DNA of 47,708 nt from a virus: IMG/VR virus record IMGVR_UViG_3300035688_000216, positions 1-47,708 of that record, one strand, 5' to 3'. The position numbers and the translations under genes were made by a program. The notes under the pieces are model-generated. The model was given only the letters and a program-made list of their open reading frames with translations, was not told the origin of the DNA and did no database searches. Below, in pieces: positions 1,012 through 40,844 of the stretch. The first letter of the stretch is position 1. Every line of letters starts with the position of its first letter.

Positions 1012-3657
1012 TTAGTTGTACCAAATAACAAGAAAGATTTTCTTCGTGGCATTGAGTCTATTCTTGATCTGCAACGGTTCCTGGGCAGCCCCCGTTCCGA
1101 TATCCAGTTTATCGTCGGTATCGGCATTGGCCACGACGTTCGTTGAATTATTCACGAGCGTCACGTCTCCGTCATTGTCGATCCAGAAATCAGACCGCTC
1201 TTCATTATTCCCGGCGGCGATGAATCCGCGAGCTGAACTCGTGATGGAGAATGGAAGCGTAAGGATGGCATCGTCGGCAAGGTCCGTATAATAGCGATAC
1301 TCATTGACCGTCCCGCCTCCGCATTCAAGCGAAACTATCCCCCCGGCCTCGCCTATCCAATGCGGCGCCGCGTGACCGCCGATGCCGCCCGCGTCGGCTG
1401 AATAAGCGGCGAAACTATCCGTCACTACCCCCGGAACCGCCACGTTGAGCAATCTAATGGGATAACTCGTAATCGTCCCGGCTGTCCCTGCCTGTATTTT
1501 AAACCGCTCGGCAAGTATCTGTAATACTGTTCCGCTAGCCCCAACCGTACCTGTCTTGAATATGATATCGCCTGATGCGGCATCTCCGGTGGCCCTTCCG
1601 CCGGCAAGGATGATGTCGGCGGCGGCAATATTCGTTCCGACGCCCCCCGATGCATTTATGGTAACGTCTAGGGGCGTTGCGTTGACAATACCATTGCCGA
1701 GATAAATGTCATCTATGTACCCGCCGGAATCCCCGCCGATAACGCATTGGTGCGCCGTCCAGACCTTCGCCCCGTATCCGAGAGCGATGGAATAGCTTGT
1801 CGATGGGCCAACTGCAGTAAGGCTTGCATCCGGCGTGGAGTCGGCATAGATGACCGTCGAATTGTCACCGATGGTGGCAACAAAATAGTATGGCAGGTAA
1901 AGCGAACCCCCGACCTTAGAGCGATAGAGTTTTCTAGCCGTGCATAATCTCGGGCCGGTATAGGTTGGAATTGACGCTACGTTTATGATTAGGTTCCCGG
2001 CCGTGGTCGTGATGACAGAGGCCGACGCCGCCCCGAGCATCGTTTCCTTACCGTCCAAAACAAAGGAAGTTCGGTAACGATAATTGCCTATCTCAAGGCC
2101 CGCTCCAGCCGCCTTTGCTCCCGTCGGTCCCGTGGCCGGGGGAACGAAGTTCACAACATCCCAACCTGAATAAGACCCGATATAGATTGAACCTTTCTCG
2201 GTTGTGAAGTATGGGGTCCCGGAAACGGCAATTATCTTTAGGGCATTCCGTCCCACGGCGATAACGTCGCCCTGGTTATATCCGTATCTTCCCGTATCGT
2301 TCCCGGCAAAATACCCCAAAAAGCATAACCCGTCTGCCGGGGTGTCTTGGTTTGCCCCGGAATAAGCGCCGACCGAAGTGCAATAATTCAGTCCGGCCGT
2401 TCCACCGGAAACATCAACGGTTCCGCCGCCATATAAAACCTCGTCGCCGATTCCGACGTTTGCCGTTCCATATAGCATTTCATAGAATGAATAGGAACCG
2501 ATTGATATAATTCGACTGTCATTGTCAACGAGATCATCAATATAATGATAGAGTGCATTATATCCGATGGCTACAATATCGCCCCAATTATCGCTCGTCG
2601 GGGTGAATGAATAAAGCGCACTACTGCCAAGGACGATATTATTGCAAGCCCCATCATCCTGGCCCGTCGTGTCAATGTTATGTCCGGCGAGGTCTCCTAT
2701 AAAAATGTTTTGTTGCAAATATCCCTTGGCCCCCCCCAAAACATCATACCCAAGGCCGATAACGGTATTGATTCCCAAAAGAGTGGCAGCAACGCCGCTG
2801 GCGGCGTATGGACCGATGATTACGGAATCCCAGATACCGTCCTCGGTACTCGTATTGTACCAGTCCCTTATGTTATATCCGGCCTGGGAACCGATGATGA
2901 CATTATCTTCCCAGTATCCGGCGGCAAGCGGAGCCGCCTCATCTCCGATGATGACGCTATTGGTCATCGCCGCCGGATCGCCGCCCGTCCCGGAACAGAC
3001 GCCCTCCCCGAACAGGGTATTTGTATTGCCCGAATATAGGACGGTCTCCGTCTCCAGCGTCGCGCCCTTGCCGATGCGAAAGGCATCATCGGCGTCGCTG
3101 TCGTCCACGCCCATCGTATATTTGACGACAGGCGTCGCTCCAAGCACGAACTGAATGAGGGGATCACGCTCGGCATCGGAGGCATTAATAATCCGGAATA
3201 TGGGACCTGCCGTAGAATCTTGTAGGGTCAGCGTTCCATCAAGGTATCGGATATAGTCATTTCCCGAAAACGCCGTCCCTGATTCTATCTTGAATGAATC
3301 GGCGTCGCTGTCGTCCACGCCCATCGTATATTTGACGACAGGCGTCGCCCCAACCGCGAACTGAATGACCGTATCGACCTCGGCATCCGTCAGATTGCGG
3401 ATTGTGAGGAGCGGCAAGGTCGGCGATACCGTGATATACGAATTGAACTCCAGCCCGGTCTCGGCGGCGTTCACGCTCGGGAGTTCCCCTGTCGCGCCCG
3501 CATAGGTCGATGGGGTATCGGTGAGATCAATGAAAGTTTCGGTAACCGGCGGGATGATAATATGCTGGGTGATCCCCGCACCGGAGAGCGCCCGCTCCAG
3601 TTTGCGCCGGAGGATCTCCACCTCATTTCGCGTTGCGACTTTTTCGCCGATGCTCAT
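1012..3657 (-). CDS. Large tail fibre with YadA-head-like repeats (881 aa)
   Basis: The start at 3657 has AAGGATATGGC upstream. The N-terminus (about residues 5-28) looks coiled-coil (NEVEILRRKLERAL). It is followed by a duplicated module containing GATPVVKYTMGVDDSDAD, present twice 70 residues apart. Between about residues 240 and 500 are many short repeats of the type SVIIGDEA, NVIIGSQAG, NIFIGDLAG, NVGIGDEVL and SVGAYSG, each with a hydrophobic-hydrophobic-G core. This resembles the trimeric left-handed beta-roll of YadA-type adhesin heads. The C-terminal third has glycine-rich beta segments. It is probably a trimeric fibre or receptor-binding protein. No chaperone or autoprotease domain was recognised at the C-terminus. 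Confidence 0.75.
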   Translation of the reverse strand: MSIGEKVATRNEVEILRRKLERALSGAGITQHIIIPPVTETFIDLTDTPSTYAGATGELPSVNAAETGLEFNSYITVSPTLPLLTIRNLTDAEVDTVIQFAVGATPVVKYTMGVDDSDADSFKIESGTAFSGNDYIRYLDGTLTLQDSTAGPIFRIINASDAERDPLIQFVLGATPVVKYTMGVDDSDADDAFRIGKGATLETETVLYSGNTNTLFGEGVCSGTGGDPAAMTNSVIIGDEAAPLAAGYWEDNVIIGSQAGYNIRDWYNTSTEDGIWDSVIIGPYAASGVAATLLGINTVIGLGYDVLGGAKGYLQQNIFIGDLAGHNIDTTGQDDGACNNIVLGSSALYSFTPTSDNWGDIVAIGYNALYHYIDDLVDNDSRIISIGSYSFYEMLYGTANVGIGDEVLYGGGTVDVSGGTAGLNYCTSVGAYSGANQDTPADGLCFLGYFAGNDTGRYGYNQGDVIAVGRNALKIIAVSGTPYFTTEKGSIYIGSYSGWDVVNFVPPATGPTGAKAAGAGLEIGNYRYRTSFVLDGKETMLGAASASVITTTAGNLIINVASIPTYTGPRLCTARKLYRSKVGGSLYLPYYFVATIGDNSTVIYADSTPDASLTAVGPSTSYSIALGYGAKVWTAHQCVIGGDSGGYIDDIYLGNGIVNATPLDVTINASGGVGTNIAAADIILAGGRATGDAASGDIIFKTGTVGASGTVLQILAERFKIQAGTAGTITSYPIRLLNVAVPGVVTDSFAAYSADAGGIGGHAAPHWIGEAGGIVSLECGGGTVNEYRYYTDLADDAILTLPFSITSSARGFIAAGNNEERSDFWIDNDGDVTLVNNSTNVVANADTDDKLDIGTGAAQEPLQIKNRLNATKKIFLVIWYN
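3088..3139 (-). repeat. Direct repeat copy 1 in fibre gene
   Basis: This stretch is almost identical to 3298-3349, exactly 210 bases away; at least 48 consecutive bases match. It encodes the second copy of GATPVVKYTMGVDDSDAD in the fibre. The surrounding 70-residue units are similar but more diverged, so the near-identity here points to a recent gene-conversion or slippage event within a repeated fibre module. Confidence 0.85.
3298..3349 (-). repeat. Direct repeat copy 2 in fibre gene
   Basis: Partner of the copy at 3088-3139, in the same orientation and reading frame. It encodes the first copy of the GATPVVKYTMGVDDSDAD segment. The 210-base offset corresponds to a 70-residue structural unit of the fibre shaft. 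Confidence 0.85.
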
Positions 3658-3666
3658 GCCATATCC

Positions 3667-5454
3667 TTAATATGTTTGCGTATCCAGAACGGCGACGATC
3701 TCCGTCGATGCCGTTGCCGGCTTCTTCGTGATCTTGATAATCCTGAACAGAACCCCGCTTATCGCCCCACCTGCGTATGCCGCCCGCGTGCGCGTAATCT
3801 TCACCCTGTTGCGGCCGGGATTCAGGTCAAGCCCATAGCCTCGCACCTCGAACGTGATCTCAAGCGGCGGCGTCTCATACATTGAGAGATAGGCGGCGGC
3901 CAACCATGCCGCACCGGCGGATGCTTTCAAGTATGATTCAACTTCAAGCGTTTCCTCTATGCCGTAAACAAATCGTGCCACATCCGAGTCGGCTTCGCTA
4001 ACCTTGAACTCATCATTGTCCGGATTCTCGTCATACTTAATCTTGATGATATTTTTGATTGCCGAGAAATCATGCCGCATTGAGAAAGACAGAAAATGCT
4101 CATCAAAGAAATGGGGCGGCGTGACTCCAAGCGGATCACTATTCGCATAGATCGTCGGTGCATATGTCCCATCCTGAAGCGGAACGAGCTTGAAAAGAAG
4201 CGAAGCCTCCAACTTGCCGACGATCTCTCCGAATGTCATGTCATAGTCAATATAGGTCGCTATTGCCTGCCTTCGGTTCGTCTTGAAATCGAGCAGGGCC
4301 GCCGCATCAAGGATGGAAAGCGATTTGCCGATCCGGTTTACGACGAGGTCTTCGAGCATGTCGGCCCCGATGACAACCGCCCCAACCCAGGTCCCGCCCG
4401 TATCGGCCGTCTCACCCTCGTCGGCATGGACAAGAGTATACGTGAAATGGAGGATGTCCGGGACAGCCTTCACCGTGAATGTCCCATCGTAGGTCGCATC
4501 GGCCATTCCGCTGATCACGACGTTACTGCCGACGATCAATCCGTGAACGGCGCCGGTCCCGATAGTGGCTATGTTGCCGGATACGGCTCGATGGGCGGTC
4601 GCTCCCGTTATTGTCGCGCCCTCAATATCGCAAAGGAGGTTAGATGACATATCGCCGCGCAAGGGAAAAAGAAAAGGGTCGGCATAGTTCTCGGCCGAAG
4701 CATCAAGAGAGGTAGAGCCGATCTGTACCAACGGCGGTCCGAGATCCGATGCAATAGAGACGCGGATATACCCGGCCGTCCAGACACCGCCCGACGGAGC
4801 CTTAATATACCAAACCTGTATCCTCGTACAGTAGAAGGCAGTTCCACCCGTTTTGAACGATTGCCCGAGTTGGGCGGTAGCTGCGGTATCCTTAAACTCC
4901 TGAGTCTCATTGGGCCAAATATGCCTAGAGTTATTAACCTGTATCGTCTCCGGTCCGTCGAGGGTTTCCCTGCCCCATACCCAGAACCGGAGGTCATGCG
5001 CCGCGTCTGCCGTCCAAGTATTAGCGCCGGAATCGAATGTCCATATACTTCCATCACCGTATCCACATACCGCCGCATCATATCGTTTGAGATGTAGGTG
5101 CTTTGCAGCATCCACGGAGCAATCGGCATCGAGAACGAAATAATAGGTCGTGCCGGATTCAAGAAAGGGCGTCTCTTTATCAAGAGTAAATTCGGCGATA
5201 GCGAGGTCGGGCGTATAATCGCCGGGATCCAGCGTTTCCGTATCTGTCCGAACCTCGTCAAGCGAATGAATGGCGTGATCCGCTATCTTGTAAATGTGGT
5301 CAACCGTATCAATGCAGACGGGAACAACATCGTGAAGGTCGCCATAAGCGATGGGGATCGGTGCGCCGTCGGCCCGTTCCTCAAGGTTCGGATAATTCGG
5401 CGCAACGCCCGCCGCCCATTTATATCGAGTCTTAGGCAGTTTGATATTGAGCAT
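3667..5454 (-). CDS. Tail hub / tail-associated structural protein (595 aa)
   Basis: The frame is open further upstream, but the likely start is ATG at 5454, which follows the stop of the previous gene by two bases and has AGGA upstream. The product begins MLNIKLPKTRYKWAAG. A middle region (about residues 180-290, with QLGQSFKTGGTAFYC and RIQVWYIKAP) looks like a carbohydrate-binding-type beta domain. The part around VVNRIGKSLSILDAAALLDF and GEIVGKLEASLLFKLVPLQ and the C-terminal NPGRNRVKITRTR resemble tail hub or Tal-type proteins. Its position after the tape measure and two distal tail genes agrees with a baseplate-hub role. No endopeptidase motif was seen. The exact family is uncertain. 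Confidence 0.65.
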   Translation of the reverse strand: MLNIKLPKTRYKWAAGVAPNYPNLEERADGAPIPIAYGDLHDVVPVCIDTVDHIYKIADHAIHSLDEVRTDTETLDPGDYTPDLAIAEFTLDKETPFLESGTTYYFVLDADCSVDAAKHLHLKRYDAAVCGYGDGSIWTFDSGANTWTADAAHDLRFWVWGRETLDGPETIQVNNSRHIWPNETQEFKDTAATAQLGQSFKTGGTAFYCTRIQVWYIKAPSGGVWTAGYIRVSIASDLGPPLVQIGSTSLDASAENYADPFLFPLRGDMSSNLLCDIEGATITGATAHRAVSGNIATIGTGAVHGLIVGSNVVISGMADATYDGTFTVKAVPDILHFTYTLVHADEGETADTGGTWVGAVVIGADMLEDLVVNRIGKSLSILDAAALLDFKTNRRQAIATYIDYDMTFGEIVGKLEASLLFKLVPLQDGTYAPTIYANSDPLGVTPPHFFDEHFLSFSMRHDFSAIKNIIKIKYDENPDNDEFKVSEADSDVARFVYGIEETLEVESYLKASAGAAWLAAAYLSMYETPPLEITFEVRGYGLDLNPGRNRVKITRTRAAYAGGAISGVLFRIIKITKKPATASTEIVAVLDTQTY

Positions 5455-5456
5455 GA

Positions 5457-6164
5457 TTATTCCTGGAACCGCCGCGGATCTTCCGTATCGAATACGACCG
5501 TCCCATCCGTCCATGTCCATCCGCCCGTATAACCGTCGAATAGTTTGATATAATCTGCATAAGCATCGCCGCTGTACCCGAATCTGATGACCATGCGTTT
5601 GCCCTCATAGACATAATCAGCAAGTCGGGAGTCCCAGTAACCACCGGGATTTAATGCAACTACAGAACCGAAACTCTGTGCGATTCCACCTTCCGAGAAC
5701 TGTGTCGCCTCGAAGGAAAGATCGGTAATAGAAGACGGGTCGAGGAGCGGGCGATAAGGATGACTTATGGTATCAACCAATAGATCCACGAGATCAACCT
5801 GGCGGTCGGCCAGTCGTTCCCAGAAATAGGAATTGATATAGAACAAGCCGCTTCCTACACCCGGGTCTGCCGCCGTTGATGTGTGGACATAAAGTCGGGC
5901 CTGCGCCGCATCCCAATACCAGGATTTAGCCGTTGAATTACATGTTGTAAGATCGGCAACGTCCGGAGTATAGGTCACGAAAAGGCCCGTTGATTTCAGA
6001 CATTCGCGGACCCGGGACGGCTTACCCTCGGGGTGTGCTATATAATAACAGTTCGTATAAGTGACAAGGACATGAGTCCATGTCTCACCCTCAAGCCTCC
6101 TGGCCGGCTCAATTTGCGCAAGCCAGACGAGATCTTGAGTCGTGAGCGCCGGATTGAAGGTCAT
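5457..6164 (-). CDS. Distal tail / hub-associated protein (235 aa)
   Basis: Starts MTFNPALTTQDLVWLAQIEP with its ATG overlapping the stop of the previous gene at 6164. The protein is rich in aromatic and beta-prone segments (YWDAAQARLYVHTS, GYWDSRLADYVYEGKRMVIRFG). The C-terminal GYTGGWTWTDGTVVFDTEDP resembles hub proteins that describe a path or force application site in other phage tails. It lies between the distal tail protein and the hub candidate. No confident family; the structural role is inferred from position. Confidence 0.6.
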   Translation of the reverse strand: MTFNPALTTQDLVWLAQIEPARRLEGETWTHVLVTYTNCYYIAHPEGKPSRVRECLKSTGLFVTYTPDVADLTTCNSTAKSWYWDAAQARLYVHTSTAADPGVGSGLFYINSYFWERLADRQVDLVDLLVDTISHPYRPLLDPSSITDLSFEATQFSEGGIAQSFGSVVALNPGGYWDSRLADYVYEGKRMVIRFGYSGDAYADYIKLFDGYTGGWTWTDGTVVFDTEDPRRFQE

Positions 6165-12483: not shown

Positions 12484-12909
12484 TCAACTCGGAGCCATAA
12501 TGAATCGGAATCTCATAACGCCATGCCTTACGAGATGCGTCGGCACGGAATCATCAATGAAGAGTTCCGACATATCGAGGAATGCGATGAACGGCGCAAA
12601 ATATCCGAGCACGGCAAGGTCCGTTCCGAGGACGGCCTGGACGATATTGTCCATATACTGGGAGGCTTGCTTATCGCCTTTGGTCGCGCTCCAGACATGG
12701 ACGGTGATGGTATTGTCTTCAACCTGCGTGTCTTTTGTCGTGAATGATATGGACCGGATGCCTATCGGAGAACCGAAGGATACATACGGCATGACGGCAC
12801 TTTTGGGAACGTAGTCATAGATCGTATAAGTGCTGGTTAAAGCATGGGTCGTGAGCCGGGTATAGATCGACTGCATTAACGGCTGGAATCCGAGCCTTCG
12901 TGTTGCCAT
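12484..12909 (-). CDS. Tail terminator / tail completion protein, DUF3168-like (141 aa)
   Basis: Begins MATRRLGFQPLMQSIYTRLT, then YTIYDYVPKSAVMPYVSFG and a DNTITVHVWSATKGDKQASQ stretch. This is the pattern of DUF3168 proteins (..ALx..L...vyd.vP....PYv..g......tt....h...i.vWs...G..ea..i), which cap the tail tube. AGGAGTTCGAT precedes the ATG. It sits where it should be relative to the tail tube gene. However, it is separated from its usual neighbour, the gp10-like protein at 22592, by the 9.2-kb glycan island. Confidence 0.85.
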   Translation of the reverse strand: MATRRLGFQPLMQSIYTRLTTHALTSTYTIYDYVPKSAVMPYVSFGSPIGIRSISFTTKDTQVEDNTITVHVWSATKGDKQASQYMDNIVQAVLGTDLAVLGYFAPFIAFLDMSELFIDDSVPTHLVRHGVMRFRFIMAPS

Positions 12910-12918: not shown

Positions 12919-15504
12919 CTAAAACTGGTTGACCACCGATCCCAGTCCATGCTTTTGTAAAAAATATGCCATCGGAGTTGTCCTACGGTACTGGTTATAT
13001 TCCGTATCCGGGCTTGTGATGAGATGGAATGCCTCGGCATCAAGACAGATGGCCGCCCTCCATGACGTTTTCTTTAACTCCAGAAAAAAGTCTATGTGTT
13101 CATATTCGATTTTTATCCGGTTATCCCACATCACGTCCTTGAAGATTTTGCATTTGGCAAGGAAGATGTTCGGAACCTGATCGGCCAAGACATACTTAAT
13201 GTCGCCGGCCGTCGCATGGACTTCGCGGGGAGCCGGGATTCTGGCGAGTAGTTTGCCCCGCATTTCAAATCGTAGCCCCTTGGCATAGTTCTCTCCGGCA
13301 AAGAATGCACCTTTTTCATATTTAAGCGTCGCTGCAACTAACCCGATATGCTCATCCGAATCGAGCACTTCTTTCATGTGTTTGATCGATTCAGGGTCCC
13401 TGATGACAACGTCGTCATCCGATATTAGAACATAATCTTCCTTGGCCTGTTTTATGATCGCATTCCGTCCTAGGGAAATCCCCGAATTGAATGGAAGGGA
13501 GATGATCACGTGTCCGCTCTTTTTGAGTTTCGCATAGGCCAGCGCTCTCTCGTCATCCTGCGGTCCATCGTCGGCAATGTAGAAGCGATAGGGTAGGCCG
13601 GACTTGGCGAGCGTTGCCCGATACGTTTCGAGCGTCTTGAATAATGTCTCACTCCTCATGAACGTCTTGATCCCGACGGCAAGTTTATTTTCGCGGGCGG
13701 CAATAACGGCCTTCATGTCATTATCAATTATCCGTTGCCGGATTTCGGTCGTCGAAATACCCTGCGTATAAGGTAGATAAACCAATTTGCCGCCGTGCTT
13801 CCGGACATATGCCTCGCCGGGACATTGGTCCCAATCATCGCCGTGAACGAGATAATGAGGTTGAATGCCTGCCGCCTCAAGGTCGGCCGTCGAATTCCTG
13901 TCGTTCTGCATAATGGTTTTATCGACGCATTTCAAGGCTTCGACAATCCTCCGCCTAGCCTCGAATGGGATGATCGGCTGGGACTTGTAATCCGATGCGG
14001 CCTTATCGGTCAGAACGCCGACAATGAGTTTCGTCCCAAGCGCCTTGGCCCGTTCAAGGATAGCCAGGTGTCCCTCATGGAAGAGGTCCCAGACGCCGCC
14101 GATGAATACGGCTTTCGCGCCCCGCTTGAAATAGTTTCGGTCAATGGCCCGGCAGTCATTCCAATATCGATAGGCTCGTTGCCGTTGCCGCCAGTTCGAT
14201 CCATAGCGCTCCAGAAGATATCGTTCCGGCGGGTTCGGGAGGAAGCATGGAAGGCCATGGAACGTGACCGGCTTCAGGTCTTTGAAGAGATGGGCCGAGA
14301 AAACATGCGGGAGAAATTCCAAATCGACGTCACGCCCGCCTTTCTTATTCGGCCCGAATGCGCCGTGCCACCAAAAATCGCCGTCATCATAAAAAAAGAA
14401 AAGATCGACCTTGACGCCGTTCTTCCGGAAACTTAATTCCGTTTTTTTCTTGCCGTAAATCCACGCCCGCAAGAACTCAAACCCGGCCGCTATCATGTCG
14501 GCCTGGAGTTTATCCCAGAGTGCCGGTTCCTTCGGGTGAAGTCCGATGTCGATATCCGGATCATGTGGGATGAACCCCTGTTCCCGTACCGCCCCGAGGC
14601 ACGTCCCGGCCTCCAGCCACCAGATACACTTGTTGGCGGTTAGGACATCTATGATGAGTCCGAGGTTATCACCCTTGAGATCAACCGGTTTCCCATCTCC
14701 CATCGCTTCGTAAGAAAGGGGCGATTCCGGATTGTAATCGCTGTTGACGTATTTGAGTCCCCATTTCTCGCCGAATAATTTCCACCCCACCGGACGGCAT
14801 CGGTATTTCTTGTAATCGTCCGTTCCTTCCGGAAGGTGTTGCAACGATACGTCTCGGGTATAGGCGACACGCCATTTCATTTTTTGCTGGAGCCCCAGGA
14901 AGAAATCCTCGTGTTCCAGCGCCGTCTTAAATGCCTTATCCCATGGGTTATCGAACCATACCTGGCGACGCATCAGGAAGATATTGAGGATAAGATCGAA
15001 ACTCATGGTAAACTGAACGCCGGATGCCGTCTTCCGCCATACCGGAGAATCAATTTTCTCTATGAAATGCGTCGTGCCTTCACTATAAATCTTGCCTTCA
15101 TAGTGCTGCTCTCGGCCATCCTTGAGGAACATTAGGCAGCCACAGAGTCCGGCCGTTGGTTCATCGTCTAGGACCGCCCGGAGTTTTTCAACTTTCGTCT
15201 CGTCGGTGAATACCGTGTCGTCTTCGATAATCATCAGGTATTCGTATTCCGGCGGGATAAGCTTCAGCGTTTCGTTCCGGACGCCGCTCACGCCGAGATC
15301 GAACGGAAGTTGGAAATGCGTGCATTCGGCAGCCTTCAGAAATTCCGTCTTTTTATCATCCGGATTCCCGTTGTCGCCCACGAAGATCGGGATATCGGGA
15401 TAAAACTTCCTGATGCTTTCGACGCAACGCATAAGGAGTGCGTCCCGCATGAACGTCGTTATGATGATCGCGGTTCGATCAAGTCCCGGTGTCGGTTCCG
15501 TCAT
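12919..15504 (-). CDS. Four-domain fusion GT2 - LicD - cytidylyltransferase - GT2 (861 aa)
   Basis: Domain 1 (residues 10-225) is a GT2-like fold beginning TAIIITTFMRDALLMRCVES, with an acidic metal motif IIEDDTVF (92-99). Domain 2 (about 281-450) looks like LicD: WWLEAGTCLGAVREQGFIPH, then DPDIDIGLH (315-323) and KVDLFFFYDDGDF. Domain 3 (465-592) is a nucleotidyltransferase of the TagD/RfaE type: GGVWDLFHEGHLAILERAKA (HEGH 476-479) and ISTTEIRQR (583-591). Domain 4 (606-830) is another GT2-like domain with ISDDDVV (694-700). The cytidylyltransferase part could activate a polyol phosphate or phosphocholine-like group as a CDP derivative, and the LicD part could transfer it. The natural substrate is unknown. 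It is the last gene of the island. Confidence 0.85.
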   Translation of the reverse strand: MTEPTPGLDRTAIIITTFMRDALLMRCVESIRKFYPDIPIFVGDNGNPDDKKTEFLKAAECTHFQLPFDLGVSGVRNETLKLIPPEYEYLMIIEDDTVFTDETKVEKLRAVLDDEPTAGLCGCLMFLKDGREQHYEGKIYSEGTTHFIEKIDSPVWRKTASGVQFTMSFDLILNIFLMRRQVWFDNPWDKAFKTALEHEDFFLGLQQKMKWRVAYTRDVSLQHLPEGTDDYKKYRCRPVGWKLFGEKWGLKYVNSDYNPESPLSYEAMGDGKPVDLKGDNLGLIIDVLTANKCIWWLEAGTCLGAVREQGFIPHDPDIDIGLHPKEPALWDKLQADMIAAGFEFLRAWIYGKKKTELSFRKNGVKVDLFFFYDDGDFWWHGAFGPNKKGGRDVDLEFLPHVFSAHLFKDLKPVTFHGLPCFLPNPPERYLLERYGSNWRQRQRAYRYWNDCRAIDRNYFKRGAKAVFIGGVWDLFHEGHLAILERAKALGTKLIVGVLTDKAASDYKSQPIIPFEARRRIVEALKCVDKTIMQNDRNSTADLEAAGIQPHYLVHGDDWDQCPGEAYVRKHGGKLVYLPYTQGISTTEIRQRIIDNDMKAVIAARENKLAVGIKTFMRSETLFKTLETYRATLAKSGLPYRFYIADDGPQDDERALAYAKLKKSGHVIISLPFNSGISLGRNAIIKQAKEDYVLISDDDVVIRDPESIKHMKEVLDSDEHIGLVAATLKYEKGAFFAGENYAKGLRFEMRGKLLARIPAPREVHATAGDIKYVLADQVPNIFLAKCKIFKDVMWDNRIKIEYEHIDFFLELKKTSWRAAICLDAEAFHLITSPDTEYNQYRRTTPMAYFLQKHGLGSVVNQF

Positions 15505-16231
15505 TCCCTAATATCTCCCTCACGAGTGGTTGTGCAAAAACCCGCACTTTATTCTCTATGTGTTCCCGGAGTGTATAGCCATCCAGGTTCGGCTGCGGCT
15601 TATCCGTGTTTTCGCGGAATCTTGTCCCATACCAATGATGGTATAGGGTCGCTTTATCCCCGATCCATATTTCATCTCCGATACAATCGGGATAAACCTT
15701 CGTTCCCTTTTCAAGCCGATTGACTTTATATCCGAGGTCAAGTATCTGCCAATAAATACGTTGCGCCGTATCCGTGGAGCGCGGGTCCAGTTCCGGCCGA
15801 TAGGCGAAGGATAGGTAGTGCTCACGGATAAACCGCCGTTCAAAGAAAAACAGGGGCGGGTGGAGCGGCTTGTGCGCCGGACCGACACAACCGATGAGTC
15901 GCGTCAATCGGTCGGCTCCATAGAGCGCGATGAGATCGGTGTCCCACCCAACACGCTGAACATGGGTATCGATATCAAGGATGCAGACATACCACCCGAC
16001 GGCCGCATCGACCAGTTGATCCATCGCCCGGCCGTGTCCGAGATTTCCTTGATTCTCGATAAGCCGGACATCGGGTTGTTGCCTCAACCAATCGAGGTTC
16101 CGCTTAAGCGATCCGTTATCGGCAATGATAATTTCATACGTTTTCGGAGTCGTGAACTTCCGGACGCTTTTCACGAGAAGTTCGGCCCATTCCGGGGAAT
16201 CGACATTGGCGGCGGCGATGGTTAGGCGCAT
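15479..16231 (-). CDS. GT2-type glycosyltransferase (250 aa)
   Basis: Starts MRLTIAAANVDSPEWAELLV and continues TYEIIIADNGSLKRNLDWLR and NLGHGRAMDQLVDAAVG, the nucleotide-sugar binding half of GT-A/GT2 enzymes. The acidic metal motif is ILDIDTHV (DxD). The C-terminal half (LFFFERRFIREHYLSF, GDEIWIGDKATLYHHWYG) would shape the acceptor site. It overlaps both neighbours, so it is translated as part of the island operon. Donor and acceptor are unknown. Confidence 0.85.
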   Translation of the reverse strand: MRLTIAAANVDSPEWAELLVKSVRKFTTPKTYEIIIADNGSLKRNLDWLRQQPDVRLIENQGNLGHGRAMDQLVDAAVGWYVCILDIDTHVQRVGWDTDLIALYGADRLTRLIGCVGPAHKPLHPPLFFFERRFIREHYLSFAYRPELDPRSTDTAQRIYWQILDLGYKVNRLEKGTKVYPDCIGDEIWIGDKATLYHHWYGTRFRENTDKPQPNLDGYTLREHIENKVRVFAQPLVREILGNDGTDTGT

Positions 16232-17043
16232 CGAAGCCTTGCCAACTCTTCCCGAATCCGAACCCTGAGCATTCTGCCCTTTTTCGTTTCTGCATTTTCC
16301 GGTTCAAGCCACGCTTGGGCGTGCCCCCAATGATGAAACGATGACAAGATATGGGGCGTCAATTCCCGATGGATATATCCTTTAGGGTTATCATGCCGCA
16401 TCTTGCACCAAAGGACGCAGCCGGGATCGAAGATTACCTTGTCGGGTTTGAAATCTACTGCATATCTGCCCCATGTCGCCTGCGTGCACAGGAAAAGTGG
16501 ATTATGCTCGGGCGGATAAAGATGGGAGCATTCTGTCCGCCACGGCTCATCTTCGCGCCGCAATTCGTCAATCGACCAATCGACAGCCATGCCGTCCCGA
16601 TAGGCCGTCATGTTTAGGAGCGCGAACCATGGCAAGAATTGTCCCGGCATATATCCCCGGCTACAATATCCGAACTTGTCTTTTTCGATTGCAACGATGA
16701 GGACATGGGGATCGGCGGCCAATCCCAGGAGGCCCGACAGCCAGCCGGGGCGGAGCACCTGGATGTCATTATCCATGAGGACGGCGAAGTCGGCGTCCGA
16801 ACCGTTGACGAGGGCGTTCAGCCCGACCCCGTGGCCCCGATGTGCATTCCCTAGAAGGATACGGTTGATCAGGCCAACATCTTGCGCCCGCGTGAGATAG
16901 ATGAGTTCGCCCGGATTCGCTGAGGCGTCATCATAGACAATGACGCGGTGCGGCTCCGGCGTGAGCCGGGCGATGCTCTCGATGCACAACTCCAAGGCTT
17001 CGCGGCCATCAAAATTCGGGATTAGAATATCAACCGGCTTCAT
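16222..17043 (-). CDS. GT2-type glycosyltransferase (273 aa)
   Basis: I chose ATG 17043, which overlaps the previous stop as ATGA, over an in-frame alternative at 17052. The protein starts MKPVDILIPNFDGREALELC, with a HRVIVYDDASANPGELIYL stretch and a GHGVGLNALVNGSDADFAVL stretch. The metal motif is LMDNDIQV (DND). This is the standard order of a GT2 GT-A domain. It shares the IPNFDG, VYDDAS and DxDIQ(V/I)L(R)xGWL layout with the glycosyltransferases at 17642 and 18929, so the cluster probably grew by duplication. Confidence 0.85.
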   Translation of the reverse strand: MKPVDILIPNFDGREALELCIESIARLTPEPHRVIVYDDASANPGELIYLTRAQDVGLINRILLGNAHRGHGVGLNALVNGSDADFAVLMDNDIQVLRPGWLSGLLGLAADPHVLIVAIEKDKFGYCSRGYMPGQFLPWFALLNMTAYRDGMAVDWSIDELRREDEPWRTECSHLYPPEHNPLFLCTQATWGRYAVDFKPDKVIFDPGCVLWCKMRHDNPKGYIHRELTPHILSSFHHWGHAQAWLEPENAETKKGRMLRVRIREELARLRCA

Positions 17044-17642
17044 TTGTCGCAATCAATAAACGGGTCGATAATTCTAAACCCCTCGGAATATTTCGGATCC
17101 TTAAACCCGATCAATGTCACTTCTCCAAATCCTGCCTGCCATCCCGTCAATACCTTCGGGGAATGGCCCAGAAACACCGAGTGCTCATAAAGGAATTGGT
17201 GAATATATAATCCGAGCGATTCCAGGTGATCAAATACCACCTTGGACTTGAGACTGTGGAATTGGCCGTCGGGTGCAACAGCCAGTTCGTGTGGATTATT
17301 AAGCGCCGATCCCCACGAGATTACCAACATCCCGTCGCCCCGCATGAGGTCAACCATTTTGGCGAGGCTCTGTTTCCAGTACGGATCATGCTCCAACATC
17401 GAGGCCGAGGCGACCGTGTTAAAGCATGACGCCGGATATTGAAACTCATGCGTCAAGCTGACAACATCAACATCTTTTCCAGGACGCCAATCGACACCGA
17501 TATAGTTTTTACAATGGAAATAATCGCGGATGGACCCGTTGATATTGGCTGCCCCGAACTCGATCACAACGGCCGGGTCGTTAAAATAGCACGGATATCG
17601 CTGACTCGTCTGCCTCCAGAAGTGCCGATTGAGGGGGTGCAT
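17040..17642 (-). CDS. Class I SAM-dependent methyltransferase (200 aa)
   Basis: Contains VVIEFGAANINGSIRDY as a modified motif I, an acidic end of strand 2 (YIGVDWRPGKDVDVVSL), and NTVASASMLEHDPYWKQSL, the common Methyltransf_11 motif before strand 4. It then has DLMRGDGMLVISWGSA. The glycine-rich loop is weaker than canonical (EFGAANINGS). Flanked by two glycosyltransferases with start/stop overlap at both ends, it is likely a sugar or glycan methyltransferase rather than a nucleic acid one. Confidence 0.75.
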   Translation of the reverse strand: MHPLNRHFWRQTSQRYPCYFNDPAVVIEFGAANINGSIRDYFHCKNYIGVDWRPGKDVDVVSLTHEFQYPASCFNTVASASMLEHDPYWKQSLAKMVDLMRGDGMLVISWGSALNNPHELAVAPDGQFHSLKSKVVFDHLESLGLYIHQFLYEHSVFLGHSPKVLTGWQAGFGEVTLIGFKDPKYSEGFRIIDPFIDCDK

Positions 17643-18379
17643 TATGAGGCATCCTTCCGCAACTTAATCAACTCCGCTTGGACTGCTTCGTATTTCTGCT
17701 TTCTGACATCAAAGTTCGGACCGCTCATCGGCATGGAAAGAACGGAGATGTGACAGGGGTGATGGTAATACGCGCCCGGCCCGTTCGGGAATGACGAAAT
17801 CCCCTGCGGGAACGGGGCAAGAATGCGCCCCTGATCGAGTATGTTTTTATAAATCTGATGACCGGCAGGATATAACGCCATCGGCGTTGCGTCCCAACTA
17901 ATAAATTCCGGTTTCGTCGTATAGTCCCATTCGGCGGGTTTAATGAACGGATACTGCGCCATATCCAGCATAAAAAACCACGAGGCGATAGATACGTTAT
18001 CGGGGAATACCTCCATATCGGTGATCATCGCTGCACCCGTTGCCTCTTGATGAGCAATCATCTTCTCAAGCCATCCGGAGCGCAGGATCTGGATATCGCA
18101 ATCCAGAATCATGGCAAGATCGGTTGTCACGGCATTGAGCATCGTCCTGATGCCGCATCCCCATCCGCCGTGCGGGTTGCCTTCGATGAACTTGATCCAG
18201 CCTTTCTCTTGGGCGGCCCGGAGATATGTGAGGTCATCGCCGTAGTGTACGGGGTCCGAGGCGTCGTCATAGACAATCATTTCATACGGGCATTTCGTAA
18301 ACCTCCGGACGGACTCTATGGCCAGGGCGACAGTATCGCCGGACTGGAAATTTGTCATGCAGATAGTGACGCTTTTCAA
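17642..18379 (-). CDS. GT2-type glycosyltransferase (245 aa)
   Basis: Starts MKSVTICMTNFQSGDTVALA, then CPYEMIVYDDASDPVHYGDD and GWGCGIRTMLNAVTTDLAMI. The metal motif is ILDCDIQIL (DCD). Family features match GT2. It has the same VYDDAS and DxDIQ signature as the gene at 16222-17043, pointing to duplication within the island. The role would be adding one sugar in the putative phage-encoded glycan. Its own acceptor is unknown. Confidence 0.85.
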   Translation of the reverse strand: MKSVTICMTNFQSGDTVALAIESVRRFTKCPYEMIVYDDASDPVHYGDDLTYLRAAQEKGWIKFIEGNPHGGWGCGIRTMLNAVTTDLAMILDCDIQILRSGWLEKMIAHQEATGAAMITDMEVFPDNVSIASWFFMLDMAQYPFIKPAEWDYTTKPEFISWDATPMALYPAGHQIYKNILDQGRILAPFPQGISSFPNGPGAYYHHPCHISVLSMPMSGPNFDVRKQKYEAVQAELIKLRKDAS

Positions 18380-18389: not shown

Positions 18390-18932
18390 TCATGGGCTCA
18401 CTATAATTCCGATCCCGGTCCGGGGTTTGCTCCGGCTATCGATAGAGATAAAGACTTTTTCCCCGGATACGGTAGTAATCAATTCGCCCCACAATCGGTG
18501 CGGCCCGGCCAAGCCCGTGATATCGTGGAGGGCGACAATTCCGCTCGCGAGCGGTGCATATATCTCATAATCCCGTTTAACGGATTGATAGTCATGCGCT
18601 CCGTCTATGAACAGAAGATCGATGGTCTGTCCGTTGAGCATAGTCCGGAGTCGGTCAAACGTTTCGGGTGCATGACTATCGCCGAGAATGTCCGGCGCCC
18701 CCGACTTGTTTTGTATGTCGATTCCGATATGCCGAGCGTTCAAATAGTATTCGTAAAACGGCTTCTGCGCATTCGCCCAAATCCCGATTTCGACAACTAG
18801 CGGACGTTCAATCTTATGTCGCTCAAAATAGGAGCGAACGATGTCCATATAGGCAAACCATTCCGGGCGGCCCTGCATGGGCAACGCGAAAGATTCCTCA
18901 AAGGATTCATAATCTTGAACGCAATACATCAT
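18390..18932 (-). CDS. Class I methyltransferase, CmcI-like (180 aa)
   Basis: Motif order: LVVEIGIWANAQKPFYEYYL, then ARHIGIDIQNKSGAPDILGD, then IDLLFIDGAHDYQSVKRDYE and IVALHDITG. The LFIDGAHDYxSVxxDyexyxPL stretch is the hallmark of the CmcI / Methyltransf_24-like group. It is a clear paralogue of 27697-28290, which shares GDSHAPETF/GNTHAPETL and LLFIDGAHDY/ILFIDATHTY. It overlaps the upstream glycosyltransferase, so a role in modifying a sugar or glycan intermediate is likely. The substrate is not known. Confidence 0.75.
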   Translation of the reverse strand: MMYCVQDYESFEESFALPMQGRPEWFAYMDIVRSYFERHKIERPLVVEIGIWANAQKPFYEYYLNARHIGIDIQNKSGAPDILGDSHAPETFDRLRTMLNGQTIDLLFIDGAHDYQSVKRDYEIYAPLASGIVALHDITGLAGPHRLWGELITTVSGEKVFISIDSRSKPRTGIGIIVSP

Positions 18933-19786
18933 GAGGTTATACCATCTGTCCTCAGTTCCGCGAGTCGCTTATCGACCTCGGCGAGTACGCTCTTGACATG
19001 GGGGTGATCGGGGCGATGCGAATTCCGGTCTATCCCACCCCTCCATATTATGTGCGTATTCCAATAATTATCGGGTAGGGGTATCATCCTTAGTTCCGCC
19101 GGATTATCGAAATGGAGCCGTTCCCACAGCGTCCATCCTGTGTCGGCAAACACAAGCGGGGGCGTGCGCTCGGGCGTGCGAGGAGGCGTAAGTCCGGCGA
19201 ATATCTCCGGCCGTTCGAACTCCTCAAATCCGATCTGCCGAAGTTCCCACTTATGGTCCGCGAAATGCCGCCGATAGAGCGGCATATTCAAGAGCATGAT
19301 ATTCGGCCAGTAGGTCGGCGTTATCCAACTCACGTCAAAATGGTTCCCCCCGTCGCGCTCGCGGGCCACGCCCAAATCGTGCTCCGGGTCTTTTATCAAG
19401 TCCGTGAGCGTATCCAGCCAATCGGGTCGGATGATCTCGGAATTGGAATTGAGGAGGAGCGCATAGTCCGCCGTCGATGCCGCGCATAACAGAGTCAGAT
19501 TTTCGCCGTGTCCGTAGTGCGTGCCGGGATCCGTCTTTTCGATGAGTTGGATGTGCCCCATCCCGGCCATCGCCCGTAGGTATTCGCGCCGGTTGCCGTC
19601 ATCGCCCGTGATTGAGATGGGCTGAGGATCACGCGCCCAGTTCATCCCCGATAGGCTCGTGACGGAACTGTTATCGCAAACGATGATCTTATATCCCGTC
19701 TCCGGCGACGTACGCTTTATGATCGACTCGACAGTCAGGCAAATCGAGTTCCAAGTGAAGCGGTTTGGAATAAGGATGTCGATCAT
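18929..19786 (-). CDS. GT2-like glycosyltransferase, divergent metal motif (285 aa)
   Basis: Starts MIDILIPNRFTWNSICLTVE, then GYKIIVCDNSSVTSLSG and HYGHGENLTLLCAASTADYA. The place of the usual DxD is taken by LLNSNSEII, so the metal ligands are changed (NSN). Enzymes with such changes can be metal-independent or inactive. It overlaps the DNA methyltransferase start upstream and the methyltransferase downstream. GT2-like fold is well supported; activity is less certain. Confidence 0.75.
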   Translation of the reverse strand: MIDILIPNRFTWNSICLTVESIIKRTSPETGYKIIVCDNSSVTSLSGMNWARDPQPISITGDDGNRREYLRAMAGMGHIQLIEKTDPGTHYGHGENLTLLCAASTADYALLLNSNSEIIRPDWLDTLTDLIKDPEHDLGVARERDGGNHFDVSWITPTYWPNIMLLNMPLYRRHFADHKWELRQIGFEEFERPEIFAGLTPPRTPERTPPLVFADTGWTLWERLHFDNPAELRMIPLPDNYWNTHIIWRGGIDRNSHRPDHPHVKSVLAEVDKRLAELRTDGITS

Positions 19787-20436
19787 GCCCTTGCTGTCTC
19801 CATCGGAATTACAAGTTGCGCTTGTGCTTCCTTGATTCGCCTTTCTGCTATAGCAAAATATCCGGGGTCAATCTCAATGCCGATGAAATCGCGCCCGGTC
19901 TGGACGCAGGCAACGCCTGTCGTGCCGGAACCCATAAAAGGATCAAGGACAGTCGAACTGGGTCTTGCAAATTGGGCAACAACTTTTTCGTAAACATCAA
20001 CCTGCTTCATGGTCGGATGATTGAATTTGGGCAAGCCCGCCTTGCGAACTGTTTTATATAAATTCCAACCACGCTTCACTATTTTGGGGTTGCCTTTCCC
20101 CAATAGGAATTTGCTTTGAAATACATCAAATCCGACTCGGCAAAACGCCATGGTGTTTTCCTGGGAGACAGCCAGCAAATCGAGAAATTCCCAATCCCCA
20201 ATAAAATCCGGGAGCCTTAGAATTTTCTGTCTTGCCCAGTCGCTAATCAAAAAAGAATCGTCCTTTGCAATGCGATAGAGTTCGGAGAAAACGTCTTTCA
20301 ATAAGGTAGTGTTTGTAAATTCATCATTTGCAAATGCCTTGCCGACCCCATACGGCGGGTCCGTTATCACCGTGTCAACGGACTTGTTGGGGAGCGTTTT
20401 CATTACTTCCAGACAATCGCCGAGGATGAGTTTCAT
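19783..20436 (-). CDS. DNA methyltransferase, beta-class N4/N6 type (217 aa)
   Basis: The catalytic motif DPPYGVG lies at residues 26-32 and the SAM-binding motif LDPFMGSGTTGVA at about 164-176. This order (catalytic first) defines beta-class amino-methyltransferases. The start MKLILGDCLEVMKTLPNKSV is canonical. It sits between an acetyltransferase and a glycosyltransferase, with four-base overlaps at both ends. No restriction endonuclease is nearby, so it is an orphan, perhaps protecting phage DNA from host restriction. The target sequence cannot be read from the gene. Confidence 0.92.
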   Translation of the reverse strand: MKLILGDCLEVMKTLPNKSVDTVITDPPYGVGKAFANDEFTNTTLLKDVFSELYRIAKDDSFLISDWARQKILRLPDFIGDWEFLDLLAVSQENTMAFCRVGFDVFQSKFLLGKGNPKIVKRGWNLYKTVRKAGLPKFNHPTMKQVDVYEKVVAQFARPSSTVLDPFMGSGTTGVACVQTGRDFIGIEIDPGYFAIAERRIKEAQAQLVIPMETARA

Positions 20437-20984
20437 TGGCCCCTATATTCATTCTCAAGGATGCTCATGGCCAGATAATCCACGAATCGCCCGTTGCGGA
20501 AGATAGCCTCTCGGTGCTTCCCTTCGAGCTTGAACCCGGCGTTGAAATAGAGTTTCTTGCCGATCTCATTAGTATCGAGAACTAAGAGCCAGGTGCGATG
20601 CATTCCCATGTAATCAAAGCAATATTTGAGAAGTGCCTTATAAATCCGCGTCCCATATCCTTGCCCGCGCATCGCCGGGACAACATCGGCCCCGATGCGG
20701 ACGGAACGGTTGGGGCGGTCTATCTCATCCATCCGAATGATGCCGACGAAATCGCCCTCAAAATAGATAGGATAGTGCTCATCCTGTCGCTCCATGAATA
20801 CGGCGAAGTATTCTCGGGAAGGATCACCGTCCAGCCGCGAGAACCATTCCGCCTGCGCCTCGGCTGAGATATGCCCGATTGAGGTAAGCTGGCTCCAGGT
20901 CGATGGATCATTTCGCAGGGTCCGGATCGCCTCAAGGTCCTTCTCCTCTACGGGCCGAAAGACGATGCCGTTACCCGCGAACAT
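20433..20984 (-). CDS. GNAT-family N-acetyltransferase (183 aa)
   Basis: Begins MFAGNGIVFRPVEEKDLEAI, then a DFVGIIRMDEIDRPNRSVRI stretch. The acetyl-CoA loop is PAMRGQGYGTRIYKALLKYC (R/Q-x-x-G-x-G/A motif), then TWLLVLDTNEIGKKLYFNAG and LEGKHREAIFRNGRFVD. This is the layout of PseH/FdtC/RimJ-like GNAT proteins. It is encoded directly after a DegT aminotransferase, so N-acetylation of the amino sugar made by that enzyme is a reasonable inference. Confidence 0.85.
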   Translation of the reverse strand: MFAGNGIVFRPVEEKDLEAIRTLRNDPSTWSQLTSIGHISAEAQAEWFSRLDGDPSREYFAVFMERQDEHYPIYFEGDFVGIIRMDEIDRPNRSVRIGADVVPAMRGQGYGTRIYKALLKYCFDYMGMHRTWLLVLDTNEIGKKLYFNAGFKLEGKHREAIFRNGRFVDYLAMSILENEYRGQ

Positions 20985-22104
20985 GATCCCATGCCTCTAT
21001 CGCATCCATTATCGTTTCCCTTTCATCCTGCCCGATCCACCATCCTACCGGGATACACACCTTATGCGAATCGAACTCATCTACACCCGGGAGCGAGCCC
21101 CCGCGTGCGCCCGCGAAGCAGGTATGTTTATCGTTTCGGGCGTGAACCTGCGATACCTGAACTCCGCCCTTTGTCATCCAATCCATGAAGGAAGGCCTGT
21201 CATCGACCAGGATCGTATAGAGCCAATAGGATGATATCCGGTTCGGCTTGTATGCGAGCGGGCGGGCGTGCCTTATGCCCCGTGCCTCAAACTCCGAGCC
21301 ATACCATGCGGCGTTCAGCCGATGTACCGCCAGCGTTTCGGGGAGCGTCTTGAGGCCCTCGATGCCGATGGTTGCGGCGATATCATTCATGTGGAATTTA
21401 TATCCGAATTCGGCGATGTTATCTTCGCATCGGAAGTCCGTGCGCGGCGTATCGCGGTCTATGCCGTACCAACGGATAAGTCGGCCCCGGCGATAATGGA
21501 GTTCAGCCATCGCCGCGCTCCCGCCGGCCAGCGTCAATGCCCCGCCGTCCACCGTCGTCAGATGCTTAATCGCCTGGAACGAGAAGCATGTAAACATGCT
21601 GATGCTCCCGATCCGTGCGCCCTTATATGAGGCCCCGATGGCGTGGCAGGCGTCCTCAATAAGATAGATGCCATTTGCTTCGGCTATATCCATGAGCCTT
21701 TCGAGATCGCATGGGTAACCGCCCCAATCGACGCAGATGATAGCCCGCGTCTTGGGCGTTATCTTGCGTTCCACATCATCCGGATCGATATTGGCATCAT
21801 GCGGATTGATGTCGGCCCAAACGATATCCGCTCCCCGCTCCAGGATGGGCATATTCGAGGCCGTGCAGGTCATGGGCGTGCAGATGACCTCATGCCCGGG
21901 TCCGACGCCCGCAAGCCGGGCCGCGAGATGGATTGCCGATGTTCCGCTATTCGTGGTCAGGACTCGGTTGTTCTGGAACTCGTCGGCCAGAAGGCGCTCG
22001 AATATATCGACCTTCTGTCCCTGCCCGATGTAACCCGAATGAAGTACGTCAAGGAGTGGGCCGTCAATGAACGGCGGCATTCTAACCTTGAAAAGCGTTA
22101 TCAA
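20971..22104 (-). CDS. DegT/DnrJ/EryC1 sugar aminotransferase (377 aa)
   Basis: PLP-dependent enzyme. The phosphate-binding segment is LTTNSGTSAIHLAARLAGV (GTSA 54-57), the PLP ring contact is IEDACHAIGASYKG (D151), and the Schiff-base lysine lies in SFQAIKHLTTVDGG (K180). Length is typical of the family, which aminates nucleotide-linked keto-sugars. No dehydratase, epimerase or dehydrogenase is present to make the keto-sugar, so the host must supply it. It is the first gene of the island and overlaps the gp10-like gene by four bases, so the island reads as part of the structural operon. Confidence 0.92.
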   Translation of the reverse strand: MITLFKVRMPPFIDGPLLDVLHSGYIGQGQKVDIFERLLADEFQNNRVLTTNSGTSAIHLAARLAGVGPGHEVICTPMTCTASNMPILERGADIVWADINPHDANIDPDDVERKITPKTRAIICVDWGGYPCDLERLMDIAEANGIYLIEDACHAIGASYKGARIGSISMFTCFSFQAIKHLTTVDGGALTLAGGSAAMAELHYRRGRLIRWYGIDRDTPRTDFRCEDNIAEFGYKFHMNDIAATIGIEGLKTLPETLAVHRLNAAWYGSEFEARGIRHARPLAYKPNRISSYWLYTILVDDRPSFMDWMTKGGVQVSQVHARNDKHTCFAGARGGSLPGVDEFDSHKVCIPVGWWIGQDERETIMDAIEAWDHVRG

Positions 22105-22592
22105 ACTTTTTCATCCTTTCCCATGATCTTGCCGATCTCCGCGCCGACTTCGCCTTCGTGCTGGAGATAGGCTTTAGTAAGATAAAATTTGCCTTCAACA
22201 ATCGTTCCAACCCCTAGTCCCATTCCCGCGAATGAATCCGCGCCTTGCTTCGATCCTGCCACGTGACCATATTCGACATGTATGGCATATTTCACGTTGG
22301 TTCCCACGACAACGACGAGCCCTTGCGGCCCCTGCGGTTCACCAACGCCATCGTCGGCCTGCGCCTTGCCGCCCGTTCGTCCCCGAGACTTTCCGCTTCC
22401 GGACCAATTAGTTGAAAGAGAAGAACGGAGACGACCCGTTTTCACGGGACAAAAAATCTTAGCATCTCTTTCGACCTCGAATCCGATCTTCTTTAGCGTA
22501 TCCTCACAAGCCTGGCGCTTGATGATTTGCCACTTCTTGAGGCTCGCCAGCGTCTTCTCGATGCCCTCGACCTTGACGTTTATGGTGCTCAT
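22101..22592 (-). CDS. HK97 gp10-like head-tail / tail completion protein (163 aa)
   Basis: Begins MSTINVKVEGIEKTLASLKK, then AKIFCPVKTGRLRSSLST and VVVGTNVKYAIHVEYGH. The pattern A...P..TG.Lr.S......... G....YA..vE.G is diagnostic of the HK97 gp10-like family. It comes after the connector and head-closure genes and would normally be followed by the DUF3168 tail terminator, which here lies 9 kb further on. Confidence 0.9.
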   Translation of the reverse strand: MSTINVKVEGIEKTLASLKKWQIIKRQACEDTLKKIGFEVERDAKIFCPVKTGRLRSSLSTNWSGSGKSRGRTGGKAQADDGVGEPQGPQGLVVVVGTNVKYAIHVEYGHVAGSKQGADSFAGMGLGVGTIVEGKFYLTKAYLQHEGEVGAEIGKIMGKDEKV

Positions 22593-27695: not shown

Positions 27696-27696
27696 T

Positions 27697-29327: not shown

Positions 29328-29351
29328 ATCCGACCCTCCTTTGACGATAAA

Positions 29352-40581: not shown

Positions 40582-40844
40582 TCCTTCTCCTTATCGTTAA
40601 GGGCGGTGATCTTCTTTCTCAGCCGTTCCAATTCTTTCGCCGTCGCGTCCTCAAAATCCCACCGGCCCCGCAACTTGTGATAGGCGCTCAGGTTTTTCGT
40701 AAAGAACCGGATCTCTTCGATGGCGTATTGATCTGCGTCGAGGCCTATCTCGTAGACCTCGATGCGCCCGCCTACGTACTCGAAATAGGCAGGATCCATC
40801 ACGCACTCTTCCACAAAGCTGAGGAAATAGGTTTTGCCTTTCAT
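40578..40844 (-). CDS. Hypothetical protein (88 aa)
   Basis: Starts MKGKTYFLSFVEECVMDPAY with ATGA coupling to the methyltransferase stop upstream and to the membrane gene downstream. The N-terminal half is beta-rich (YFEYVGGRIEVYEIG) and the C-terminal half a charged helix (AKELERLRKKITALNDKEKE). No family recognised. The couplings at both ends support it. Confidence 0.6.
   Translation of the reverse strand: MKGKTYFLSFVEECVMDPAYFEYVGGRIEVYEIGLDADQYAIEEIRFFTKNLSAYHKLRGRWDFEDATAKELERLRKKITALNDKEKE

Follow-up and report, generated by a model that had tools for sequence, protein, structure and literature searches.

A phage tail-operon protein joining two glycosyltransferase domains with LicD-like and putative cytidylyltransferase domains

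Introduction

Can a single phage polypeptide both produce an activated phospho-alcohol and transfer it to a glycan that it helps to build? This question is raised by an open reading frame at positions 12919–15504 of the IMG/VR virus record IMGVR_UViG_3300035688_000216, an uncultured virus contig that was analyzed over its full length of 47,708 bases and is referred to as the window. The frame encodes 861 amino acids without an internal stop codon, and its ATG lies at 15504 on the minus strand, which corrects the orientation in a preliminary description of the locus. That description had recognized two glycosyltransferase family 2 (GT2)-like domains flanking a LicD-like phosphotransferase and a nucleotidyltransferase with HEGH and ISTTEI motifs, and had suggested that the latter supplies LicD with a donor linked to cytidine diphosphate (CDP).

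Results and Discussion

Domain architecture and folds

Pfam searches, matches to solved structures and AlphaFold2 folds agree on one frame holding GT2, LicD, nucleotidyltransferase and GT2 domains in this order, here called GT2a, LicD, CyT (for cytidylyltransferase) and GT2b, and the limits originally assigned to them hold to within about 10–20 residues. Every Pfam match to the four domains exceeds the curated cut-offs, including those to LicD and the nucleotidyltransferase family, on which the earlier assignment depended. Glycos_transf_2 (1.7e-25) matches two stretches, placing the second GT2 domain at residues 610–741, and Glyco_tranf_2_3 (7.8e-9) matches best at 11–225; LicD (1.1e-13, 52.2 bits vs a cut-off of 22.6) is likewise found in two stretches, the better one at 290–323, and CTP_transf_like (1.1e-17, 64.9 bits vs a cut-off of 21) covers residues 468–591. 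The two nucleotidyltransferase motifs were located as HEGH at 476–479 and GISTTEI at 582–588.

By sequence, CyT matches the cytidylyltransferase domain of Fom1 (Fom1 CyTase, 5x3d, 8.1e-21), human ECT, HldC and TagD, and its model superimposes on Fom1 CyTase with Z 18.3 and a root-mean-square deviation (rmsd) of 1.5 over 119 residues at 40 % identity, and on TagD with Z 17.4 and rmsd 1.9 over 125 residues. The sole convincing sequence match of LicD is FKRP (4e-6); in this alignment D315, D317, D319 and D367 of the DxDxD and VD(L/I)F motifs fall on FKRP aspartates, and the LicD model superimposes on FKRP 6kal with Z 16.8 and an rmsd of 2.6 over 154 residues. The LicD-CyT piece modeled alone with 14 alignment rows reached a predicted local distance difference test score (pLDDT) of 80. 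In the full-length model (11 alignment rows) GT2a and GT2b are good and LicD-CyT is poor, with pLDDT below 50 for most of residues 373–605, and the relative orientation of the four domains is kept out of all claims made here. From this full-length model, GT2a resembles human B4GALNT1 (9h6k, VIA Z 26.7, rmsd 2.2 over 237 residues), and GT2b shows a GT-A fold with VIA Z ~20 to polypeptide GalNAc-transferases and other GT-A enzymes close behind. The predicted common fold does not fix the sugar used by either domain.

Conservation of catalytic residues

A residue alignment of 18 four-domain proteins, 13 of them distinct, bears out the expectation that catalytic residues are kept. The acidic GT2 motifs E94-D96, D696-D698, E197/D200 and E802/D805, the LicD aspartates named above, and H476, H479, K507, R517, GDDW, Y579 and S584 of CyT are unchanged in all 18 proteins; T585 and T586 vary between Thr and Ser. 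Against five close relatives (L004–L008), the ratio of nonsynonymous to synonymous substitution rates (dN/dS) stays at 0.05–0.11 for every domain, and strong purifying selection thus acts on all four parts. In a wider set the LicD aspartates are present in 36 of 36 LicD domains, and CyT motifs are lost in two of 32 CyT domains (L117 and L118), with single positions varying in others. Those two proteins (four-domain frame at 3122–5728) retain CyT without the first His of HxGH, the GDDW and the YT pair, which represents natural decay.

Viral family and natural variants

Viral scans provided 49 contigs for classification, weak single-domain relatives (L027–L029) being excluded. The whole four-domain frame occurs in 23 of them, down to about 41 % identity and including the two with decayed CyT, a recurrence well above what chance would give; five further four-domain frames and three LicD-CyT-GT2b pieces are cut by contig ends. 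Three contigs (L119–L121) encode GT2a-LicD-GT2b without CyT, and GT2a-GT2b without LicD-CyT was found in nine whole and two cut versions, of which one that was scanned (L021) has a further GT2 in front. L122 (3968–5684) has three separate but overlapping genes for LicD, CyT and GT2, arranged as in the fused protein, and the CyT is TagD-like with 161.3 bits in the TagD family (cut-off 165.4). The remaining contigs are L020 (GT2a-LicD, cut), L011 (cut) and L054 (LicD-GT2 plus a separate GT2). Extensions were also seen: a 22-base deletion between near-repeats in L007 (8580–11870) removes a stop codon and fuses the upstream GT2 in frame to give a five-domain product of 1,097 amino acids in this one contig, and L102 carries a long N-terminal addition that is GT2-like by eye.

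The 57-kb record of L119 was searched for a CTP_transf_like gene and none was found; an extra small LicD-like gene (1090–1620) lies upstream of its GT2a-LicD-GT2b gene. The islands of forms without LicD-CyT (L022 48–842, L026 4221–4958 and similar) encode proteins with an STGRCG-type P-loop, which may be sulfotransferase-like.

An 18-protein tree had led us to consider a single LicD-CyT insertion into an older GT2a-GT2b pair, an idea dropped after a 23-protein tree was built. In the latter, forms without LicD-CyT and forms without CyT each group apart for GT2a and are mixed for GT2b. The histories of GT2a and GT2b differ, and parts have therefore been exchanged at the domain border.

In scans of isolated phages and of plasmids no place covered 80 % of the 861-residue protein, the surrounding island gave no DNA match in isolated phages, and the nearest isolate by terminase is 42 % identical. 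Scans of genome collections, which needed exact short patterns and hence give no proof of absence, returned no LicD-CyT relatives and one weak glycosyltransferase match (L055); searches of the accessible literature yielded no report of the four-domain order. All occurrences encountered belong to a single group of uncultured phages; in this respect the order is unusual, as initially noted, but it is not unique to the window's genome.

Association of LicD and CyT outside the fusion

Whether CyT feeds LicD can be judged from organisms that keep the two apart. Among 398 Pseudomonadota genomes, 16 carry LicD at 19 places, and six of these have a separate CyT gene within 1.5 kb (L072, L073, L075, L076, L081 and, on the opposite strand, L084); two pairs of the places overlap in their flanks. 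LicD and CyT are fused at none of the 19, and a LicD-CyT profile search of the same genomes, scoring at most five candidates per genome, gave no hit spanning both domains among the matches listed. Of five plasmid LicD relatives three were opened: those of S. meliloti and Gemmobacter have an adjoining separate CyT gene, and that of Phaeobacter has none. Adjoining but separate LicD and CyT genes in bacteria and in phage L122 make it well supported by gene association that CyT feeds LicD in a relay, as first suggested from the sequence.

These neighborhoods also bear on the donor. The CyT of L072 is fused to an oxidoreductase and the L058 pair lies beside a short-chain dehydrogenase/reductase gene, both of which fit polyol donors. 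Eight stand-alone CyTs beside LicD (L122, L057, L058, L073, L075, L076, L081 and L084) score 56–161 bits with the TagD family, none of them above the cut-off, and because they score with this family a polyol donor is our first guess. It is tempered by the window's own CyT, which in sequence and fold is closest to Fom1.

Genomic setting

On the minus strand the window carries genes in a siphophage-like order, from terminase through portal, head, head-tail adaptor, neck, tail terminator and major tail protein to tape measure, and the four-domain gene closes a glycan island flanked by tail genes (Table 1), confirming its placement in a phage structural operon. A tail terminator gene directly follows the four-domain gene or its relative in 41 of 46 loci (28/30 plus 13/16). 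Five loci depart from this: L020, L104 and L123, the first and last of which are the same contig, break off within the gene, and L054 and L122 lack such a neighbor. The islands of nearer relatives begin with the aminotransferase and acetyltransferase genes and end with the upstream GT2 gene (GTx) and the four-domain gene, the middle being variable; in the L041 group the four-domain gene is accompanied only by a Methyltransf_24-like gene. A clear membrane-like segment is absent from all island proteins, whose 19-residue means do not exceed 1.63, the value reached in the GT2 of 16222–17052, and no flippase, polymerase or lipid-carrier transferase was recognized among them by Pfam.

Table 1. Position of the four-domain gene, its domains and the genes of the surrounding island in the window.
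Feature	Position	Strand	Evidence and remarks
Tail terminator, downstream island border	12484–12909	−	phrog_176 1e-19
Four-domain protein GT2a-LicD-CyT-GT2b	12919–15504	−	861 amino acids; open frame, Pfam, homologs
GT2b domain, residues 605–861	12922–13692	−	DDD 696–698, EHxD 802–805; PF00535, GT-A fold
HxGH cytidylyltransferase (CyT), residues 462–596	13717–14121	−	H476, H479, GDDW 555–558, YTQGISTT 579–586; PF01467
LicD domain, residues 281–455	14140–14664	−	D315, D317, D319, D367; PF04991, FKRP sequence and fold
GT2a domain, residues 1–250	14755–15504	−	EDD 94–96, EHxD 197–200; PF13641/PF00535, B4GALNT1 fold
GTx, GT2 gene directly upstream	15479–16231	−	26-base overlap with start of four-domain gene; fused in L007
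GT2 glycosyltransferase	16222–17052	−	PF00535
S-adenosylmethionine-dependent methyltransferase	17040–17642	−	phrog_32762 6e-23
GT2 glycosyltransferase	17642–18379	−	PF00535
Methyltransf_24 methyltransferase	18390–18932	−	PF13578
GT2-like protein	18929–19786	−	PF00535 19 bits, weak, below cut-off
N6_N4 DNA methylase	19783–20436	−	PF01555 1.5e-25
GNAT acetyltransferase	20433–20984	−	PF13302
DegT/DnrJ/EryC1 sugar aminotransferase, PseC-like	20971–22104	−	PF01041 4e-75; TIGR03588 2e-60, below its cut-off
HK97 gp10-like neck/tail-completion protein, upstream island border	22101–22592	−	PF04883; phrog_5

Elsewhere in the window, a second small sugar cluster with a GT4-like glycosyltransferase and methyltransferases (27165–30438) lies between the head and head-tail adaptor genes. 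The gene at 25620–27155 encodes a 511-residue protein with zero family matches and 17 Ser/Thr within 30 residues, a possible glycan carrier. Tandem genes at 32026–33051 and 33065–34288 each match the major head families phrog_10 and phrog_617. A DNA methylase is found in two pieces (40841–41860 and 41815–42588), the second also matching an HNH endonuclease family, as if interrupted.

Proposed function and alternative readings

We propose, with about even confidence, that the four-domain protein is a self-supplying glycan-assembly enzyme whose product is most likely attached to a virion protein. CyT would couple cytidine triphosphate with a phosphorylated alcohol to a CDP-linked donor, glycerol-3-phosphate or another small polyol phosphate being the likeliest substrate and a phosphonate or phosphocholine the alternatives. 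The adjoining LicD domain would then move the phosphate-bearing group from this donor to a sugar, forming a phosphodiester, and GT2a and GT2b would add sugars from nucleotide sugars to the same growing glycan. The aminotransferase, acetyltransferase, methyltransferases and further GT2s of the island may vary the sugars, and the finished glycan would be transferred, in the cytosol, to a virion protein, the most likely acceptor because of the tail-operon position and the lack of clear membrane segments and lipid-carrier enzymes. The preliminary description gave the best-supported reading; the activity of all four domains, the CyT-LicD relay, the donor and acceptor used, the assembly and decoration of one glycan by a single protein and the virion as target are what we infer. 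A more specific version, in which one chain generates its CDP donor in place and passes it to the adjoining LicD domain to yield a teichoic-acid-like phosphodiester glycan on the phage's own tail, with the hypervariable flanking genes providing a phage-specific glycan type, seems unlikely.

Several observations weigh against our proposal. Contrary to a straightforward family assignment of the nucleotidyltransferase, CyT reaches only 67.2 bits with the TagD/glycerol-3-phosphate cytidylyltransferase (GCT) family TIGR01518 (cut-off 165.4) and 90.8 bits with HldE domain II TIGR02199 (cut-off 181.5); as for a preference for CTP over ATP, its GDDW is common to TagD and Fom1, HldC having GGDY, yet HldE domain II scores higher than TagD. 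Arg113 and Lys44/Lys46 are among the residues reported as important in the accessible text on TagD (PMC8262930). In our alignment Tyr579 takes the place of this arginine (RTEGISTT), and Lys507 alone occupies the two lysine positions; Tyr is found at the former position in 29 of 32 CyT domains, Asp in two and His in one. Furthermore, CyT is absent within 1.5 kb of 13 of the 19 LicD places in bacteria, and the occurrence of LicD without CyT (L119–L121) and of CyT without its motifs (L117 and L118) means that donor synthesis in situ is not essential to the family. The case for virion glycosylation is made up of gene position and absent membrane parts.

A Tyr in place of TagD Arg113 is also present in Fom1 CyTase, the nearest solved CyT, which makes CMP-hydroxyethylphosphonate, and would be compatible with an identical CyT-LicD relay that transfers a phosphonate or phosphocholine instead of a polyol phosphate. 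The text available to us on phosphonate synthesis describes CyT fusions there and connects the activation of phosphonates by nucleotidyl transfer to LicD-like transferases located close by (PMC6697681). Phosphoenolpyruvate (PEP) mutase, however, was found in none of 17 viral records searched, fragments included, and for most CyTs next to LicD, in bacteria as in L122, the glycerol-3-phosphate family gives the top score; we consider such a donor rather unlikely. If the polyol is retained, the two glycosyltransferase domains and LicD could also act in alternation as a polymerase of a teichoic-acid-like chain of glycosyl-polyol phosphate repeats. GT2a and GT2b align jointly with both modules of the chondroitin polymerase K4CP, but this superposition is loose (rmsd 19.9); glycosyltransferase and polyol-phosphate transferase modules are joined in Gram-negative TagF-like polymerases, and a paper dealing with capsule polymerization discusses CpsC, which belongs to the LicD family and takes part in capsule synthesis, as far as the consulted sections of these sources go (PMC5974469, PMC8262930, PMC11666461). 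No chain-length control or export gene was recognized in the island, and relatives without LicD-CyT keep GT2a-GT2b plus a third GT2, so that the core role of the family does not require phosphate repeats. We regard a polymerase as rather improbable.

A glycan-modifying enzyme might instead be directed at the host, with the island altering lipopolysaccharide, capsule or a teichoic-like polymer during infection, e.g. to block superinfection, and the four-domain enzyme working at the cytosolic face of the membrane, where it would attach a phosphate-bearing group to a glycan of the host. Bacterial LicD proteins act on cell-surface glycans (PMC4873967, PMC11666461) and the same role was proposed for the LicD gene of some Flandersviridae (PMC8008677), according to the portions available; moreover, two of the three bacterial LicD relatives opened sit in O-antigen or capsule-like loci. 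That no clear membrane segment, flippase, polymerase or lipid-carrier transferase was recognized in the island speaks against it, as does the place of the gene within the tail operon, and we consider a host target rather unlikely. Modification of the phage DNA by the glycan island is very improbable: the island does contain a DNA methylase gene and others lie at 40841–43277, but neither the island proteins nor ten proteins scanned from 42–48 kb matched a base hydroxylase, hydroxymethylase or nucleotide kinase, and we know of no role of LicD or CyT in known DNA hypermodification. Given that the record is an IMG/VR virus contig and no isolate, an assembly artefact or a decaying, functionless fusion was considered as well, and the recurrence of the frame in many separate contigs, the low dN/dS of every domain and the kept catalytic residues reduce its probability to a negligible level.

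Should the proposed self-supplying assembly enzyme be real, it would be self-sufficient in making and using an activated phospho-alcohol and would at the same time assemble the sugar chain to which this group is attached. Whether the joining of donor synthesis and transfer brings a benefit can be tested with the forms found in nature, in which the parts are fused or split and CyT is absent or decayed. If the virion is the target, phosphodiester decorations would join the few known phage virion modifications and provide a reason for sugar islands in tail operons.

Comparison with known systems

Each enzyme type of the fusion is known, and so is the pairing of a CDP-donor synthase with LicD; we found no description of such a fusion with a CyT of the HxGH type, of its location between two GT2 domains or of its constant position within a tail operon. 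The LicD fold and the metal-site aspartates are shared by the phage domain with FKRP, fukutin and bacterial LicD (PF04991), and alcohol-phosphate transfer from a CDP donor is expected here as well. These proteins are stand-alone, whereas the phage LicD and the presumed donor synthase beside it are enclosed by a GT2 domain on either side. The closest pairings are the bacterial ISPD-LicD fusions, treated in a source whose accessible part states that LicD enzymes transfer phosphate together with alcohol (PMC4873967), and the neighboring ispD and licD genes found in certain Flandersviridae, described in the available text as new for phages (PMC8008677). A CDP-donor-type synthase is thus paired with LicD once already in a phage, but that synthase belongs to the IspD family, in contrast to the HxGH-type CyT; the Flandersviridae genes are separate and lie in the replication module, and GT2 domains are not mentioned in the parts of these papers seen. 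Fom1 CyTase and TagD/GCT (PF01467) have the fold, HxGH, GDDW and GIS(S/T)T in common with CyT. TagD differs by Arg113 in place of Tyr579, and the fusion partners differ too: LicD and GT2s for CyT, PEP mutase for the Fom1 type and none for TagD.

At the level of the whole chain, the Gram-negative multidomain TagF-like capsule polymerases likewise combine glycosyltransferase and polyol-phosphate transferase modules, one subset being fed by CDP-glycerol, but the transferase is TagF-like instead of LicD and the cytidylyltransferases (GCTs) are separate proteins, as described in the sections available (PMC5974469, PMC8262930). K4CP shares the two tandem GT-A modules on one chain; it has neither phosphotransferase nor donor synthase, and GT2a is closer to B4GALNT1. 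For the proposed target, the mycobacteriophages Che8, Corndog and Myrna are the nearest comparison. LicD and cytidylyltransferase go unmentioned in the text at hand, and in our case virion glycosylation is only proposed, but like the island described here these phages encode glycosyltransferases of their own, which decorate virion proteins including capsid and tail tube (PMC12363180, PMC11256854).

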